This document shows, piece by piece, positions 1 to 11,945 of a stretch of 23,825 nucleotides of DNA; the stretch's first letter is position 1; every line of letters begins with the position of its first letter. The notes under the pieces were generated by a model. It had not been told where the DNA came from and made no database searches. It saw only the letters and a list, made by a program, of their open reading frames with translations. The translations under genes were made by a program, and so were the position numbers. This DNA comes from a virus: positions 1 to 23,825 of IMG/VR virus record IMGVR_UViG_3300049215_000818; one strand, given 5' to 3'.

Positions 1-1167
1 CGACGGTATTGCGCCGACAGGGGGTGCGGGGGCTTTAAATTTAAAAAAACGACCAGGGGTGCGGCGTCCTGGTGTTTCCGTTTCCGAGATCCGACCACGA
101 GAAAACTCCAACGGTTCACGATCGGCACCTATCCAGACGTACCATTGGCCAAGGCAAGATCAATCGCGGACACACTACGGAAACAGGTGGCAGAAGGGCA
201 GAATCCCACGGTAAGCAAAAAACAAGGAAAGCATGACGCCGAGACCAGGACGTTCAATTCCCTGGCGATGCGTTATCTATCACGGCACCTGAAACGGAAT
301 GGGGAAAGGAAAAAGTCCCTTGTCCAAGATGAAGGCATCCTGAAACTCCACATTCTTCCGAAATGGGGCACTCGCAGATTCGATACCATCACCAGAAAGG
401 ACGTTATCGAACTCCTAGATTCGTTGGTGGATGCAGGGAAACCACGAATGGCCAATCGCGTCCATTCCTTGATTTCGGTCATTTTCTCATTTGCCTTGGA
501 TGAGGATCTGATTGGCGCTCATCCGTGTGCTCGACTGAGAAAGAGGGGAATGGAAAAGCCAGGGACACGGGTCTTGACCGACGCTGAGATGATCCGTTTG
601 TTCTGGCATGGAATCGTCCAACCACCCGTCACCCGCTCCATGGGTCTGGCTTTGCGATTATGTTTGATGACCGGCCTGCGCATTTCCGAGGCTGCCGGGA
701 TCTCAATGGCGGAAATCAATCAAGCTCAGGCGATGATCTCTATCCCAGGCAGCCGAATCAAAAACGGACGTGACCACCTTGTCCCCTTGGCACCCCTGGC
801 ATGGGAAATCGTCAGGGAAGCCTTGGGGACCCGACGCAACGGATATTTGTTTCCGTCCCCCGTAAATCTAGGCCCATACCGTTCAACGTCACTGTCGATT
901 GCCATGGGAAGGTTTACCCGATCTCTCAAGGGGAACACGGCCGCTGAGAAGTCATGGATTGCAGACCCCCCTTCCCCGCATGATCTCCGCCGTACTTTCC
1001 GAACACGTCTAGGTGCGCTGGGGGTCGGTAGCGAAGACCGGGACGCACTCACCAATCATGTCCGATCAGATGTCGGTTCCAGGCACTATGACAGGTATGA
1101 TCGCCTGCCAGAGAAACGGAAAGCCCTGGAAATCCTTTCGGCCCACATAGCCAAAATCGTCGAGTAA
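1..1167 (+). CDS. Tyrosine integrase, 5' end outside window
   Basis: This site-specific recombinase would integrate and excise the mobile element whose left end is seen here. The frame is open to position 1. Translated upstream of the first possible start (TTG at 145) it still reads as family sequence: a GGFKFK strand, a SWCFRFRD strand and FTIGTYPDVPLAKAR, the N-terminal arm-binding domain of P4-type integrases. The gene is therefore cut by the window edge and does not start at 145. In the visible 388 residues the catalytic set is complete: Arg227 (TGLRISE), His327 and Arg330 (HDLRR), His353 (NHV) and the nucleophile Tyr363 or Tyr366 (HYDRYDR). It reads into the element, as expected for an integrase next to an attachment site, so that site should lie shortly left of the window. 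Family assignment is secure; the target site is unknown. Confidence 0.93.
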   Translation, partial: RRYCADRGCGGFKFKKTTRGAASWCFRFRDPTTRKLQRFTIGTYPDVPLAKARSIADTLRKQVAEGQNPTVSKKQGKHDAETRTFNSLAMRYLSRHLKRNGERKKSLVQDEGILKLHILPKWGTRRFDTITRKDVIELLDSLVDAGKPRMANRVHSLISVIFSFALDEDLIGAHPCARLRKRGMEKPGTRVLTDAEMIRLFWHGIVQPPVTRSMGLALRLCLMTGLRISEAAGISMAEINQAQAMISIPGSRIKNGRDHLVPLAPLAWEIVREALGTRRNGYLFPSPVNLGPYRSTSLSIAMGRFTRSLKGNTAAEKSWIADPPSPHDLRRTFRTRLGALGVGSEDRDALTNHVRSDVGSRHYDRYDRLPEKRKALEILSAHIAKIVE

Positions 1168-1950: not shown

Positions 1951-1985
1951 GGGGATGGCAGATAAACTTGGGCATCCCCTTTTTT
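1951..1985 (+). terminator. Rho-independent terminator after recombinase 2
   Basis: The arms GGGGATG (1951-1957) and CATCCCC (1973-1979) pair perfectly across a 15-nt loop and are followed at once by six T. It lies 20 bp past the recombinase stop. The ATG inside the left arm (1955) is also a possible start of the next gene, so either the terminator or that start may be fortuitous. Confidence 0.55.
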
Positions 1986-3029
1986 CATTTGTAAATATCT
2001 TCATGCCCAGTTCCCCAGCACTTTCCGTCGCCCAAATCACCAATCGATCACCCACCACCATCAACTATGCCGATTATTTCTCTGGGGTGGCTCCGCAGCA
2101 GAATTTCACCACCGACCAGATATCTTCGACGGGAGTTTCCAATCTCTCATTTCCGTCCGATTTGCCGATCTACTACATTACATTGAAATATGGCGACCTG
2201 GACCGCACAAACATCAACCAACCCCTGGTCAAAAACACCATCGGGCAAATCGTCCTTCCCCTGCCCCAAAACCTACTCGACTCCCAGCATGTCATATTCG
2301 AGGCGCAACCAGTCGGGCTTGGTGGGGCTATAGCGGCACAAGCGGCAACTGGGGGTGGACTGTCTGGGGCACTCTCCTCGTCCCTGACTGCCGCCACCGC
2401 CCAGGCAGCCCAAAACGCCCTGAAAACGATCAACACGATATCCAGTCTATCCCAGGGAACTCTTGCGGGGCTGGGTCTGACGTTGAACCAGTGGCTGATC
2501 CAAATCCTGAAATCCCCAGATTACAAGTCCTGGGAAATGACATGGCGACTGTCCCCCAAGAACGAAACCGAGGCCGCCACACTCAATCAGATAATCAGGG
2601 TTCTCAATGATGGCGCCGCTCCACAACTTCCATCTGGTGGCGCGAGCTTGTATTCAGGATTCTTCGGTTTCCCTTGTGTGTGGGACGTAGCGATACAGTA
2701 TGCCCTGGGTCAATTCAACAGTAGCCCGACAAATGGTTGCACTCAGAACTGGTTGGGGACTCTCTTTCCCATGAAAACGTCAATCATAGATCAGATAAGC
2801 GTGAATTACTCCCCCGCAGGACTCCCTTCCTTCAACGCCCCTAAGAACTCCATGCCACCATCCCCCATCAATTGTCGATATCACCATCCGCTTTACCTGT
2901 TTGAGTTTCTACACCCGGGGGGATTTTGGGTCTGGTATGGGAATCACGGGAAATCTCATTGCGTATCAGAACTTCATAAACTCCATCCAAACCAACTTCA
3001 ACAATGGCGGGGTGGGGAACTTGTTCTGA
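1955..3029 (+). pseudogene. T4-like baseplate tail-tube cap (gp48/gp54), frameshifted
   Basis: This resembles the T4 gp48/gp54 family, which caps or starts the tail tube on a myovirus baseplate. Family-like stretches are the IVLPLPQNL segment, then SWEMTWRLSPKNETEAATLN with a following helix, then FPMKTSIIDQISVNYSPAGLPSF. The expected last strands (IVDITIRFTCLSFYTRGDFG) are found only in the +1 frame. Taking one C out of the five-C run at 2862-2866 restores them and gives a stop at 3027-3029, for about 342 aa, the usual length. As sequenced, the frame runs on into the next gene and ends at 3535 (526 aa). ATG 1955 has GGGAG upstream; ATG 2003 is the alternative and has no clear ribosome site. 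Family call from memory; the frameshift may be real or a read error. Confidence 0.55.
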
Positions 3030-3535
3030 TGGGCTTCACGGTGGAAGATTGCAGGAAAATCTCGATCCAGACCCTATGGCGCGAGCAAATATTCCGATTG
3101 GGGCATTCAGTTGGGATAGTCCACGGGGTAAAATTCACAACGGTCACGTCTCCCCATGGTTCCTATATTCACATCAACGGCAAATCCTGGAAACTAGACA
3201 TCGAGATCCTGAAAAGAAGCCAGAAATCCCCCACTTCAAAGGGACGGGAAATAGAAGGTTTCCGCTGGTATGTCCTAGATGGGAACGGCAAACGACATAC
3301 CGATTTGCTCTTGACTCCGGATGGGCAAGTCGGCTGTCGATCAGAGCTTGGAATTGGTTACAGGTCCCAGAGAGAAATACCCAGGAAAAGGGACGTGCGG
3401 AGAAAACAGAAAATCATGAAGCGTTTGATGGCGACTGGAACTATCGGAGAACCGCCACCAAGGAAACCGGGAATGCACAGGAAGACCTACCAAAAGCTTA
3501 ATGGCGATCTACAAACCAGGGCAACGAGCAACTGA
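3029..3535 (+). CDS. Zinc-ribbon-type phage/plasmid protein with lost cysteines
   Basis: A 169-aa protein whose ATG (3029-3031) overlaps the repaired stop of the previous gene (TGATG). It resembles a hypothetical family common on alphaproteobacterial plasmids and phages: N-terminal VEDCRKISIQTL, central W-[YF]-x-C-P-x-C-G-R-R, then F-x-C-R-x-C-x-x-L-x-Y-x-S-Q, and a C-terminal KPKGMHWRTY-like end. Here the same layout is clear (FRWYVL, CRSELGIGYRSQRE, a basic RKRDVRRKQK helix, then KPGMHRKTYQKL). Only one of the four metal-binding cysteines remains, so zinc binding is probably lost. Function unknown; nucleic-acid binding is a guess from the basic C-terminal part. Family recalled from memory. 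Confidence 0.6.
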   Translation: MGFTVEDCRKISIQTLWREQIFRLGHSVGIVHGVKFTTVTSPHGSYIHINGKSWKLDIEILKRSQKSPTSKGREIEGFRWYVLDGNGKRHTDLLLTPDGQVGCRSELGIGYRSQREIPRKRDVRRKQKIMKRLMATGTIGEPPPRKPGMHRKTYQKLNGDLQTRATSN

Positions 3536-5387: not shown

Positions 5388-5656
5388 CACGAGAACAGGC
5401 CAAGCGGGTTCTGAGGAACATCAAGTCAATCATCCGGCAAAAGTACTTTGGAGAAGATCTTGTGCCGGCAAATCACACGGGCATGGCGGTTTCATCTGAT
5501 CTACCCGTTCCCCTGGATCCCGCCGTGGAGAAGAGACGGAAAAGGAAAGTCGCTCGAAAGCAGGAAGTCGAGCCCGTTGCCGAGTGTGATGGGGTCTGGG
5601 ACATCGACCTTGTTACCCTGATCCAGTTATCTTCGATCTCCCCGACAATCCATTGA
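5384..5656 (+). CDS. Small basic hypothetical protein
   Basis: This 90-aa frame starts with GTG overlapping the stop of the DUF6433-like gene (GTGA), the usual sign of translational coupling. The N-terminal half is helical and basic (REQAKRVLRNIKSIIRQKYF); a lysine/arginine cluster (EKRRKRKVARKQE) follows at about residues 49-61. I do not recognise a family. It is the last gene of the plus-strand run and converges on the DUF3800 gene. The overlap supports a real gene, although composition alone would not. Confidence 0.5.
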   Translation: MTREQAKRVLRNIKSIIRQKYFGEDLVPANHTGMAVSSDLPVPLDPAVEKRRKRKVARKQEVEPVAECDGVWDIDLVTLIQLSSISPTIH

Positions 5657-5712: not shown

Positions 5713-6474
5713 TCAAAGGGATCGTCCCGACAAAATTGCTACGCTTTTGATCGTTTGGTCAGCAATCCTACTCAATTCTTTGCGGTCGATGTGAACGACT
5801 GTGTGGAAATGCTGCAATAGGCTTTCGCAATCCTTCCTGCGTGGACGCCCCTCAAGCTCATGTCGCCGATCTGTGTACCACTGCCAGGCAAGCAAGTCGG
5901 CGGCCTGGACCTGGGGACTTTTCTGCTTTTCCACGAATCGGTGCCCGGCATATCGTAAGTATCGCTTGTCCTCGGGCTGACTGACCATGGCTTCCATAAT
6001 TTTGTCCGCCTTGGTCGCACTCTTGTGTCCGGCTTCGAAAAAATATGTCATAGCCGCTATCATTGGGTTTCTGGATATGAATTCCGCAACCCCGGTCATA
6101 ATTACTTGTGCGCAAAAACCATAGGCGTCCTTTTCATACCAGTTTTCATCCATGGGAAGTCGAGGAAAGAAATCGGCATACTCGTCAGGATCGACAGTTA
6201 TGGCCAAGCCCTGCATGGAATGACGTTTGATAAGATCTATCAGCTTTGTCTGTACCGCAATTCTCTCCGATTTGGTCAGATTGGAGAACGGGCCATTACC
6301 ATGGGCGCAGTCTACCATATGGAAATAAGGCAATTTCTTCCAACGCAACACCCTGCGCCATTCGTGTCCGAGCTTGATCGCCTGACTCTTGCGAAAAATG
6401 TATCCGGCCAAACAAAAAATATGCGATCCATCGTGTGACCCGCTTTCGTCGAAGAAGGCTTGCGCCTGAATCAT
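5713..6474 (-). CDS. DUF3800 domain protein
   Basis: The protein starts with an FFDESG strand (residues 7-12 from ATG 6474), the signature acidic motif of DUF3800, and ends with the family's second conserved block QVQAADLLAW (Q-x-A-D-L-x-A). DUF3800 proteins are thought to have an RNase H-like fold and often travel on phages, islands and in defence loci, but no substrate is established. The ATG at 6474 puts the DESG motif near the N-terminus as usual and has GGTGG seven bases upstream. A GTG at 6534 would add 20 residues and lies seven bases after a TAATAA box, so a leaderless start there is possible. It stands alone in a long gap and is probably transcribed separately. Confidence 0.82.
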   Translation of the reverse strand: MIQAQAFFDESGSHDGSHIFCLAGYIFRKSQAIKLGHEWRRVLRWKKLPYFHMVDCAHGNGPFSNLTKSERIAVQTKLIDLIKRHSMQGLAITVDPDEYADFFPRLPMDENWYEKDAYGFCAQVIMTGVAEFISRNPMIAAMTYFFEAGHKSATKADKIMEAMVSQPEDKRYLRYAGHRFVEKQKSPQVQAADLLAWQWYTDRRHELEGRPRRKDCESLLQHFHTVVHIDRKELSRIADQTIKSVAILSGRSL

Positions 6475-6534
6475 GGCATATCCACCGTCTGGAACACGGT
6501 AGTAGCTGATCAAACAATCCTTGTCGATCTCCAC

Positions 6535-7001: not shown

Positions 7002-7628
7002 TCATCCCTTCCTCGCCCTCCTCGATCCCTTCAGGTTGATCTCTGGGCAAACAAACCGGAACGTGGCTGCCTGATTGTGATAGGCCCTGAACTCTCTGGC
7101 CAATTCTGTATTCGCAAGTTTTGATCCAATGCGGCCGTCCTCACTGGGCTTGATCTGAATCTCGTCGATCTGGAGTGAGTTGGTTTCCAGAAAGTCCCTG
7201 ACGATGGACTCGAAGGTTTTTGGAAAGTGGTCCATATGCCCGTCCCCTGGTTTCAATCTCTTCCCGGTGACTGCACATGGAATGAGGCCGTCATCATCTT
7301 TCAGAAATGATCGCTGTAGCATGATATCGCCCCTCACCACCCAGCGGAGTGCGTCCGACAAGTTGGTCCTGGGTGATGCTGGGGGGTTGAGACATTTCAG
7401 GTAGGAAAAGTCAGTCTCGCTACCGTCCACCCTGACAATCCAGAATCCGGGATACTTCCAGAGTTGACGGACCTCGAAGTGATCTATGCCCGCCCCGACC
7501 TTTTCCAGATAACGTGGATGCCCCTTGAGAAGTTCGGCAAGCGCATCAACGTCAATCGGGTCTGAGACTTCGCTTCCCGGCTTGTACTTGTAGAGAATTG
7601 ACTGGAATTTGGAACGCCTATCCGACAA
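7002..7628 (-). CDS. DUF3223 (DCL-like) domain protein
   Basis: A 208-aa protein with the DUF3223 core: HPRYLEKVGAGIDHF (residues 37-51) followed by FWIVRVDGSETDFSYLKC (62-79). This domain also occurs in plant DCL proteins. After it come CAVTGKRL and HMDHFPKTFESIV (118-143), a Cys/His arrangement often seen after this domain and faintly like an HNH motif; nuclease activity is not established. The start is TTG 7628, which overlaps the stop of the upstream gene (7618-7620) and has GGAG about 11 bp before it, so the two are co-translated. It is last in a four-gene minus-strand operon headed by the replication initiator. Confidence 0.72.
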   Translation of the reverse strand: MSDRRSKFQSILYKYKPGSEVSDPIDVDALAELLKGHPRYLEKVGAGIDHFEVRQLWKYPGFWIVRVDGSETDFSYLKCLNPPASPRTNLSDALRWVVRGDIMLQRSFLKDDDGLIPCAVTGKRLKPGDGHMDHFPKTFESIVRDFLETNSLQIDEIQIKPSEDGRIGSKLANTELAREFRAYHNQAATFRFVCPEINLKGSRRARKG

Positions 7629-8007: not shown

Positions 8008-8577
8008 TTATATCTCATCTTGATCAGCAATCCAAGACTCTCTTTCAGCAAGATAAGACTTCCTGAGTTCCGTGACTTGAATAATTTTGCCCGGGAGATT
8101 TCTGGCGTGATATCTGGCGGTTTTCAACGTTTGTTCCATCTCGTGCAGCGTATCTAAGATTTCCTTGACCGATGGCATGAAGGCTGAATTCCTCATCAGA
8201 TGGACAAAGCTCATGTACAAGGCACCCGAACTGGGCAATGCGTCCACGACCATATCCGCCCTCGATTTTACCAACAATTTCTCGGTGGTCCTATCTTTCG
8301 AGGATCCTGGCCAACCAACCACCATCTGCTGGGCGAAAAGAAGTATGTGTTTCTTTTTGGCCGGCTGTAACGCTGCGTCCAGACTCTCCCTAATCATGTC
8401 GATCTGGAGCAAAAGAGACTCGGCATTTGCAATGGAACCTTCGAAATCATCGTCGCGGTAACCTGAGAGCCCGAGTGAGATGTCGCGCAGTGTTCCGGCC
8501 ATGATCTGGAGCTTCCGACCTGGGGATAGGTCATCCTGGGTTACGGTATCGTCCTTGACTGTTGTTATATCCTGCAT
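8008..8577 (-). CDS. Hypothetical protein, mostly helical, 189 aa
   Basis: I recognise no family. The ATG at 8577 has AGGAGG about 11 bases upstream, inside the 19-bp gap after the replication initiator stop, so the two genes are probably co-transcribed. The protein is predominantly helical (for example LSPGRKLQIMAGTLRDISLGL and the C-terminal ILDTLHEMEQTLKTARYHAR), with no signal peptide or membrane span and no catalytic motif. Its place straight after the initiator is where phages put helicase loaders or other replication accessory proteins. That is a context guess without sequence support. Confidence 0.6.
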   Translation of the reverse strand: MQDITTVKDDTVTQDDLSPGRKLQIMAGTLRDISLGLSGYRDDDFEGSIANAESLLLQIDMIRESLDAALQPAKKKHILLFAQQMVVGWPGSSKDRTTEKLLVKSRADMVVDALPSSGALYMSFVHLMRNSAFMPSVKEILDTLHEMEQTLKTARYHARNLPGKIIQVTELRKSYLAERESWIADQDEI

Positions 8578-8596: not shown

Positions 8597-9718
8597 TTAT
8601 CTGTTGATCATTTCCCGGTATAGCTCACTCATATAATCGTCTGTGACATCTGTGTTGTTGTCCTCGACGGGGTTTCCTACCTCGTCGATCGTGACTCCAA
8701 CCAATTGCATTCTCCAGGTTCCTTCCTGTAGCCATCGCAAGGGATTCTTGAGATATTTGTTATCCCCGACCTTCTGACGATACCTATTAGCCGCAAACAA
8801 GATCGCGGCTGGGTCAGTCCCTTCCGATATCAGCTTGGAGAGTTCCCTGCGAATGGCGATCTCGTTCCAAGAATGGCGATAGTGGGAAAGGTAGACCTGG
8901 TGGAATTGGTGGAAGAAGGAATCCAGGGTGGGGGGCGGCACACCAGCAACGTCAGGTTTGTACGGGACCACATGTCGCGAACCAACTGAACTTGTGTTCG
9001 GGGCCGGTGGGATTCCTGGAGAACTGAAAAGGCGACCAGATGGATGACTGTGGAATGAGTCTCCAGCGGGAAGGTGATCAGATGGATGACTGTGGAATGA
9101 GTCTCCAGCGGGAAGGTGATCAGATGGATGACTGTGGAATGAGTCTCCAGAGTTCAGTTGGATGCAGTGTCGCTCCGGGTCAGAAACTTCGCCTTGGTGG
9201 TTCACACTCTCACTCCCCGGGGTCTGTTCTACTCTCCGGGTTCTTATATACGGATTCTTATATACGGTATTGCCCGGTGTATGGACCGGGGTCAACCCGG
9301 TGTGCAGACCGGGGTCAAATGTATCTCCACGCCGGGGTGATGATGGCGCACAGACCGGGGTCAAATGGACATGCACACCGGGGTCCATCCCGGCCTGCAC
9401 ACCGGGGTCAGAGTCCGCCGGCAATCTAATTCGATACGTGTTACTCCTGTTCCTATTCCCAGGCCCACGTTGTCTGAACAATTCCAGATATCCACATTTC
9501 TCCAGGAGCTCCCGTGCTCGTTCAACACTCCTCACGTTGGCCTTCAGGTCTCCCGCCAGGGTTTCCACCGATGGCCATGCACTTTGCTTTTCACTGTTGA
9601 GATAGTGGCACACAATCCTGGTGAGGAGCGCGAATGGTAATTTTCCGGTAATTCGTTCGTCAATCGAGATTCTATCCAGGACCTTGAACTTGAAGCTGGC
9701 AAATTGCTTGCTGTCCAT
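8597..9718 (-). CDS. Winged-helix replication initiator (lambda O-like)
   Basis: The N-terminal 95 residues form a helix-turn-helix domain typical of phage and plasmid initiators (SAWPSVETLAGDLKANVRSV followed by ERARELLEKCGYLEL). The C-terminal 90 residues (FFHQFHQVYLSHYRHSWNE to YLKNPLRWLQEGTWRM) resemble the DnaD/replisome-organiser tail that contacts the helicase loader. A long linker joins them, rich in PGV/TPV motifs and holding a perfect 14-residue tandem repeat (GDSFHSHPSDHLPA). This is the plan of lambda O and similar proteins, whose genes contain their own origin, and the linker DNA here has that look. ATG 9718 is preferred over ATG 9733 because GGGA lies 11 bases upstream of it. 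It heads an operon with the 189-aa gene. Confidence 0.75.
   Translation of the reverse strand: MDSKQFASFKFKVLDRISIDERITGKLPFALLTRIVCHYLNSEKQSAWPSVETLAGDLKANVRSVERARELLEKCGYLELFRQRGPGNRNRSNTYRIRLPADSDPGVQAGMDPGVHVHLTPVCAPSSPRRGDTFDPGLHTGLTPVHTPGNTVYKNPYIRTRRVEQTPGSESVNHQGEVSDPERHCIQLNSGDSFHSHPSDHLPAGDSFHSHPSDHLPAGDSFHSHPSGRLFSSPGIPPAPNTSSVGSRHVVPYKPDVAGVPPPTLDSFFHQFHQVYLSHYRHSWNEIAIRRELSKLISEGTDPAAILFAANRYRQKVGDNKYLKNPLRWLQEGTWRMQLVGVTIDEVGNPVEDNNTDVTDDYMSELYREMINR
9037..9150. repeat. 42-bp perfect tandem repeat, 2.7 copies
   Basis: Units run 9037-9078, 9079-9120 and 9121-9150 (partial) with no mismatches. The unit is a multiple of three and inserts 14 residues per copy into the initiator linker, so it is tolerated in frame. 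Perfect identity points to recent slippage or duplication, and copy number probably varies between relatives. Confidence 0.95.
9241..9409. other. Candidate replication origin: iterons plus AT-rich repeats
   Basis: ACCGGGGTC occurs at 9285, 9308, 9354, 9377 and 9401, with a two-mismatch copy (GCCGGGGTG) at 9331. Spacing is 23, 23, 23, 23 and 24 bp. A partly conserved TGCAC or TGCAG precedes most copies. Beside them at 9241-9254 and 9255-9268 lies a tandem AT-rich 14-mer, TTCTTATATACGG plus one variable base. Neither 23 nor 14 is a multiple of three, so the repeats are read in different codon frames and the conservation is in the DNA, not the protein. Iterons next to an AT-rich unwinding element inside the initiator gene is the layout of the phage lambda origin. 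Confidence 0.7.
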
Positions 9719-9812
9719 TCTCGTTATTCCCATCCTTTTTCAATAAATAATCGTGACACTAGACTTCTATCCTATCTGGGTTTGGTGTCTTGTTGTTCGC
9801 TTGGTTCGACAA

Positions 9813-10379: not shown

Positions 10380-11498
10380 CTATCTGGAATTCCGAAACTC
10401 CTCGATTCTCTGTGATGCTCGTCTGGCAACTTTCCGGTCAATTTCAAACCCCACCCATTTCCTTCCCAGTTTTTCCGCCGCAACCAATGTCGTGCCACCC
10501 CCACAGAAGAAATCGACCACCGTCCCGCCTTTTCCAGTCAGATGCTTGATGAAATATTCTGCATCGCTCTGGGCTTTCCCGTAAGGGTGCCACTTCTTCT
10601 CGGCTTTCCTGCTAACAACGGCGGAATCAATCAACTTCTGAGGATCCCCACGGTGCCCCTTGACGTACCATAGCATGGGCAGGTGTTTGCAGACGACACC
10701 ATGTTTCCTCAGTATGGCATATCGTCCGGTTTCGAAGACCGTGGCGAGTGTCATGAAATACTGGAGGTGGGTTCCCATCATCTTGATCACATCGGGCAAT
10801 ATGACATGACCGACGTAGAACACCAGACTTCCCCCATCGACCAGGATTCGAGCTGATTCCTTCTCCAGGTCCAAAATTGATTGGAGTGATTCCATGTTAT
10901 AGAGCGGATCTGTCATGACCAAGGGGACGGAATTGGGGCGAATTATCTGGGGTGACAATTCCCGAAAATCCCCGACATGGATATGAGAATCGACCCTGAT
11001 CCCGTTCCCCCCGTACAAAGTTTCTTGCTTTTCCCTTCTCCGATGCTCACGTTCCCCACTCTTGTCTGCGTAAAGGATTTTGCTGATCACTGGCTCGACA
11101 ACTTTCTTCTGGAACTCCCCATCTGGCATTCTCCACCAATTTTGCCAGACGGATGAATTGTTTCGGCTGATTCCCAGATGCTTGAGCGTTTTCGATAATG
11201 TACTTTCATCGGACGTTTTTCGGGGGCGACCTCTCCTTGCCAGTGCACCCAGTCGCTTCAACCTGATAATCACTCCCCCGAACTCCCGTCTCATCCACGT
11301 CCTGGCTTTTGCGATTTCTACCAGTCGAGATGTATCCCCGAGACTTTTGGCGTACTTTTCCAATCGCGCAAGTTCGCTTTCAAATTCAACATGGAAATCT
11401 TTCAGGTCATCCAAATTCGTTATCCTGGAAATTTCCCGATGGAGAGAGTTCAGGGACGGGATGTTGTTCTGGGGAGATATGGCAGGCAGGGTTTCCAC
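10380..11498 (-). CDS. Orphan N4/N6 DNA methyltransferase, altered motif IV
   Basis: A 372-aa protein. The first 150 residues are helical with a GRPRK patch and a segment (LGISRNNSSVWQNWWRMPD) found before the catalytic domain in phage methyltransferases. The catalytic domain has motif IV at 196-200 and motif I (DFFCGGGTT, 329-337) after it, followed by KWVGFEID. That order is the beta class, which methylates adenine N6 or cytosine N4 using S-adenosylmethionine. Motif IV reads TDPLY, where the family has DPPY, so the second proline, next to the base-flipping aromatic residue, is replaced. Activity may be reduced or retained. No restriction enzyme is adjacent, so it is an orphan, usually used for self-protection. 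Confidence 0.82.
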   Translation of the reverse strand: METLPAISPQNNIPSLNSLHREISRITNLDDLKDFHVEFESELARLEKYAKSLGDTSRLVEIAKARTWMRREFGGVIIRLKRLGALARRGRPRKTSDESTLSKTLKHLGISRNNSSVWQNWWRMPDGEFQKKVVEPVISKILYADKSGEREHRRREKQETLYGGNGIRVDSHIHVGDFRELSPQIIRPNSVPLVMTDPLYNMESLQSILDLEKESARILVDGGSLVFYVGHVILPDVIKMMGTHLQYFMTLATVFETGRYAILRKHGVVCKHLPMLWYVKGHRGDPQKLIDSAVVSRKAEKKWHPYGKAQSDAEYFIKHLTGKGGTVVDFFCGGGTTLVAAEKLGRKWVGFEIDRKVARRASQRIEEFRNSR

Positions 11499-11658: not shown

Positions 11659-11853
11659 ATGGACAACAATTCTGAAAACAAACTGGCCTACTCAATCAAG
11701 GAAGTGATGGAACTCACCGGGCTGGGACGTTCCACGATTTACAGGGCCATCGACCATGGACAACTGAAAGTCAGGAAATGCGGGCGACGGACACTTGTTC
11801 TCGCCACGGATCTCAACACGTTCCTGGACGGTTTGGAGTGTTCCAGCCCATAA
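11659..11853 (+). CDS. AlpA-like excisionase / MerR-type HTH
   Basis: A 64-aa protein with one winged helix-turn-helix: YSIKEVMELTGLGRSTIYRAI followed by VRKCGRRTLVLATDLNTFL. This is the size and pattern of AlpA/Xis-type excisionase-family proteins that bend attachment-site DNA and steer integrases toward excision. It is the last gene of the element, 60 bp before the broken capsid gene, where an excisionase would be found if the right attachment site is at about 11,860-11,940. No clear ribosome site precedes ATG 11659. It could also regulate transcription. Family confident, role inferred. Confidence 0.8.
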   Translation: MDNNSENKLAYSIKEVMELTGLGRSTIYRAIDHGQLKVRKCGRRTLVLATDLNTFLDGLECSSP

Positions 11854-11945
11854 TCCGTGTCCCCATCGTGTCCCGGACCCCGAGTCTTGTCCGCGCATGA
11901 CACAGTCAAGTCTATGAATAGGCTTCGATTTCCAGTTTTTGTGAG
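11854..11945. other. Right junction of element, candidate attachment site
   Basis: Gene content, strand and base composition all change here. CGTGTCCC is repeated at 11856-11863 and 11867-11874, 11 bp apart, like recombinase or excisionase arm sites. Capsid-family sequence on the minus strand is recognisable down to about 11,940 and then becomes unrelated residues ending in a stop at 11912-11914. The other attachment copy would be outside the window, so no core can be defined. A misassembly could give the same picture. Confidence 0.5.

Follow-up and report, generated by a model that had tools for sequence, protein, structure and literature searches.

The window that we analysed is an entire IMG/VR virus record of 23,825 bp, in which two blocks of sequence meet at 11944/11945. 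To the right of 11,945, the DNA is 98.8% identical to L086 over 6 kb; to the left, there is no similarity, and the GC content changes at the junction from about 50% (left) to 65% (right). The junction cuts the gene of a major head protein, of which the first ~113 residues remain here, while the intact protein of L086 has 277 residues (PHROG 3437 at 4e-54). The left block codes for two tyrosine integrases, one of which (1..1167, + strand) is truncated on its 5' side where the contig stops, an N6/N4 DNA methyltransferase (10380..11498, - strand) encoded upstream of a predicted replication initiator with its putative origin, and an AlpA/excisionase-like protein, the gene of which (11659..11853, + strand) adjoins the junction. 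The same 50% GC block also harbours a baseplate tail-tube-cap-like match (1955-3535; PHROG 230, 1e-19), which adjoins the two integrases and is odd company for a small replicon, as well as DUF3223 and DUF3800 proteins of unknown function (7002-7628 and 5713-6534, respectively).

The initiator gene (8597..9733, - strand) codes for a protein of 378 residues, with a winged helix (aa ~30-104), a linker in the coding sequence of which the putative origin lies (aa ~105-270) and a helical C-terminal domain (aa ~270-345). HTH_36 is its only Pfam match (2.3e-8), and its PHROG matches, 270 at 2.9e-10 and 391 (O-like) at 3.5e-10, are both replication initiator families; its N-terminal domain thus belongs to the winged-helix (HTH_36) phage initiator group of PHROG 270/391. 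Residues 274-340 match PHROG 10293 (7e-5), the family of Mycobacterium phage Rey gp74, which itself aligns to the C-terminal part of PHROG 270. The C-terminal domain appears to resemble those of Rey gp74 and of the Rousseau initiator, and the genes of both adjoin DnaB-like helicase genes. An AlphaFold2 model, of low confidence (mean pLDDT 45), shows the winged helix, an unstructured segment at 105-271 and the helical C-terminal domain. Searches with the N-terminal domain yielded weak phage matches only, a PDB sequence search with both domains gave nothing convincing, and no close homologue of the initiator was found in phages, viral contigs or genomes, which counts against reading this segment as an origin. 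The gene next downstream of the initiator (8008..8577, - strand, 189 aa) has no family match. By its position only, its product is a candidate helicase-loading partner; as a helicase loader, it was set aside given the absence of a family match and its poor structural model.

A repeat and pattern search delineated an array of six iterons with 9-bp cores inside the initiator gene (9281..9409, not assigned to a strand). On the + strand, the cores start at 9285, 9308, 9331, 9354, 9377 and 9401, which bears out the six iterons at 23-23-23-23-24 bp of the initial annotation (24, 23, 23, 23, 23 in the reading direction of the gene). The core word on the coding strand is GACCCCGGT, exact in five of the six copies, and CACCCCGGC in the other; on the + strand these correspond to ACCGGGGTC and, at 9331, to GCCGGGGTG. 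The six cores are therefore alike as had been proposed, except that two positions are changed in one of them. They occupy all three codon phases, 0, 0, 2, 1, 0 and 2 along the gene, and are translated in that order as DPG, DPG, (L)TPV, (S)PR, DPG and (L)TPV. The same DNA word is indeed read as DPG, TPV or PR by turns. The array corresponds to nt 325-449 of the gene, with the last core at 440-449, and these out-of-register repeats are probably tolerated because they encode an unstructured linker.

Immediately beyond the last core lies a tandem AT-rich 14-mer, a candidate DNA unwinding element (9237..9267, not assigned to a strand). It had been reported before; it is present, repeated 2.2 times, but its array starts at 9237, and the word TTCTTATATACGG is found at 9241 and 9255 only. 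The 14-mer sits within the most AT-rich 30 nt of the initiator gene, which start at gene nt 462. The AT-rich element thus follows the iterons in the reading direction, as in a lambda-type origin, and both are contained in ORF 8597-9733 (-), in the part that codes for the linker predicted to be disordered. Past the AT-rich element but before the C-terminal domain, the linker also contains three in-register repeats of 42 bp, or 14 codons (GDSFHSHPSDHLPA; 9029..9154, - strand), which resemble a recent duplication. The GC-skew change predicted at about 9,250 does exist but is weak: after repeat masking, the difference amounts to about 0.11, much the same as the one at 5,490, and changes of similar size occur elsewhere. 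It decides nothing, and its weakness counts against an origin, as do the DnaA boxes, which are at chance level with none convincing.

We consider it likely, from sequence evidence, that this segment is a lambda-type replication origin nested in its initiator gene. The six iterons would be bound by the winged-helix domain, which probably acts as a dimer where the units are palindromic; the assembled initiator complex would strain and open the adjoining AT-rich 14-mer repeats, and the C-terminal domain would then recruit the replicative helicase, directly or via a loader. The analysis shows the repeats and where they lie, their surplus over the demands of the protein, the dyads, the order of the domains and the shared layout; that the initiator binds, that the DNA melts, that helicase is loaded and that the origin is active is what we infer.

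The initiator and the origin might also be an inactive relic that retains the right layout within a disrupted prophage region. The truncation of the neighbouring phage major-head gene at 11,945 and the mosaic nature of the contig agree with such decay. Nevertheless, the initiator gene runs through the array without a break in its frame, since domain matches flank it on both sides in one frame, and the iteron cores are nearly intact; we thus find a relic rather improbable. The sharp break in identity and GC content, the integrases and the AlpA-like gene indicate that the origin is probably part of an insertion of about 12 kb, or else that the contig is chimeric. No tRNA that could mark a tRNA-type attachment site was found in the window, nor were end repeats of the inserted block. 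A more specific proposal, which we put forward tentatively and regard as doubtful, is that an integrative, satellite-like element of ~12 kb, with an integrase at one end, the AlpA-like gene at the other and the methyltransferase, has the initiator and the origin inside it as its replicon, and that its insertion into a resident phage destroyed the major-head gene there. If so, a lambda-style origin would drive an element by which a structural gene of a phage is inactivated.

Another function that might be ascribed to the iterons of the putative origin is that of an operator by which the initiator controls its own transcription; replication would then start at another site, if it occurs. Many winged helices of this type act in regulation, and the fold search returned MarR/ArsR-type regulators; its matches were generic winged helices, with a DnaD N-domain and an 'initiator' among the weak hits and none at E < 0.001. 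Autoregulation could also coexist with origin function. However, an AT-rich tandem next to six evenly spaced sites deep in a gene is a typical feature of origins, and the families that the protein matches, also with its C-terminal part, are those of replication initiators. A role as an operator in place of an origin therefore seems very unlikely to us.

The repeats exceed what the protein sequence requires. We generated 5000 synonymous-codon shuffles within the initiator gene, preserving the protein and the codon usage. In the 210-nt segment, neither five copies of any exact 9-mer nor six copies of any 7-mer, the numbers observed, occurred in any of them (0/5000 each), and GACCCCGGT, present five times in the gene, reached at most four copies among the 5000 shuffles. 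With a less strict repeat-chain score, based on 8-mers with one mismatch, synonymous shuffles of the window gene equalled the observed value at least once (1/40), and therefore exact words and 5000 shuffles were used. Near-perfect palindromes of 18 bp, of the type CCCGGTNTGCANACCGGG, are also present in three of the six iteron units, none of them assigned to a strand, at 9273..9290 (7/9 pairs), 9296..9313 (8/9 pairs) and 9389..9406 (7/9 pairs). The summed dyad score was reached by 1/20000 spacer shuffles, and a set of three units with 7-8 pairs out of 9 by 0/20000. The remaining three units have dyad pairs at only 1-3 of 9 positions, which counts against the origin. The pairwise identity between iteron copies is 93% for the cores and 44% for the spacers, a contrast that is the one expected if the cores, not the protein, were conserved. 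Plain tandem duplication by slippage in a tolerant linker, devoid of DNA function, is scarcely credible even though the linker is predicted to be disordered and bears the recent in-register 42-bp duplication next to the array, as neutral decay would hit cores and spacers equally instead of keeping the cores with spacers down to 44% identity, the dyads are centred beside the core, and other iteron words are found at the corresponding place in distant relatives.

These relatives came from several searches. The exact iteron pattern was found at 50 loci in genomes, none of which encodes a tblastn relative of the initiator; on inspection, several of them have the appearance of plain tandem repeats, but one, L166, turned out to be an HTH_36 gene when its ORF was read. 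A DNA-only scan of viral contigs with a looser pattern gave 82 loci, three of which (L018, L056 and L037) have initiator relatives, a proportion that we take as suggestive support. All three code for winged-helix initiators with intragenic repeats just after the winged helix. Those of L037 are spaced by 23/22/23 bp and out of register, and those of L018 and L056 by 24 bp and in register. The latter are palindromic (ACCGGGGACAAAAATGTCCCCAGT; L018:6900-7050 and L056:7050-7260). The codon register is therefore respected in some phages and ignored in others.

A profile scan revealed DnaD-like initiators (L109-L125), several of which have 21/22/23-bp repeats followed by AT-rich DNA; the iterons of the L111 type, spaced by 21/22/23 bp, are out of register at the corresponding place in the gene. 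In Corynebacterium variabile, the HTH_36 gene of locus L166 contains 22/23/22-bp repeats out of register and shares the GACCCCGGT core. Like the window protein, those of L109-L125 and L166 have an HTH_36 domain followed directly by out-of-register repeats of 21-23 bp. In contrast, the proteins of L109-L125 are only about 25% identical to it in the winged helix, and L111 has a DnaB_2 C-terminal domain, whereas Pfam finds none in the window protein. As judged from these genes, the intragenic design is recurrent, with iteron words that differ among most of them. In a mini-survey, some winged-helix initiators had no repeats above the synonymous-shuffle background (e.g. Altadena, Eeyore and Prairie). 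The DNA-level function initially proposed for the repeats is thus supported by the synonymous shuffles, the core/spacer contrast, the dyads and the occurrence of the layout in lambda O and in distant relatives. An intragenic, lambda-style origin may be recognizable from its register-ignoring repeats even without a close relative. Distant winged-helix initiators bear this signature too, with iteron words that differ, so that it could help to locate origins in unannotated phages and satellites and to match the initiators there with their iterons.

The resemblance to lambda extends to several aspects of the layout. The ori-lambda is located within O, and O binding opens the neighbouring AT-rich region (PMC5043065). 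As annotated, the lambda iterons start at 39034, 39054, 39078 and 39101 in O; they were recovered by our repeat finder as a positive control. Their spacing is 20, 24 and 23 bp, and their codon phases are 0, 2, 2 and 1, i.e. they are also out of register. They occupy nt 349-433 of the gene, compared with 325-449 here, and the most AT-rich 30 nt start at nt 444, compared with 462. With lambda as a control, the claim that the locus copies the O/ori layout was upheld: in both, an N-terminal DNA-binding domain is followed mid-gene by multiple iterons, spaced by 20-24 bp and out of register, and then by an AT-rich element downstream.

The two systems differ in their components. Lambda O belongs to Phage_rep_O (PF04492, 5.7e-36), whereas the window initiator matches HTH_36 and not PF04492 in Pfam. 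The iteron word is another one, in six copies here and four in lambda, and the AT element here is a tandem 14-mer. The window also has a long linker with the 42-bp repeats and no recognizable P protein. The lambdoid Shiga-toxin phages (P27, 933W) likewise differ from the window in iteron sequence and initiator family; their O gene contains six iterons, and plasmid transformation was lost when the iterons were changed without altering the protein sequence (PMC7466680). A further known case is SPP1, the oriL of which lies within gene 38 and also combines initiator-bound direct repeats with an AT-rich unwinding element, both inside the initiator gene (PMC6316719). SPP1 differs by its host group and by a second, intergenic origin, oriR (PMC6316719). 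The rarity implied by the initial annotation finds no support, given the out-of-register iterons of lambda, the six iterons of the Stx phages (PMC7466680) and SPP1 oriL in gene 38 (PMC6316719). The layout described here is very probably that of the classic intragenic phage origin, carried by an HTH_36 initiator rather than by a Phage_rep_O protein, and the compact lambda arrangement, long known, would thus now be found in an unstudied mobile element.
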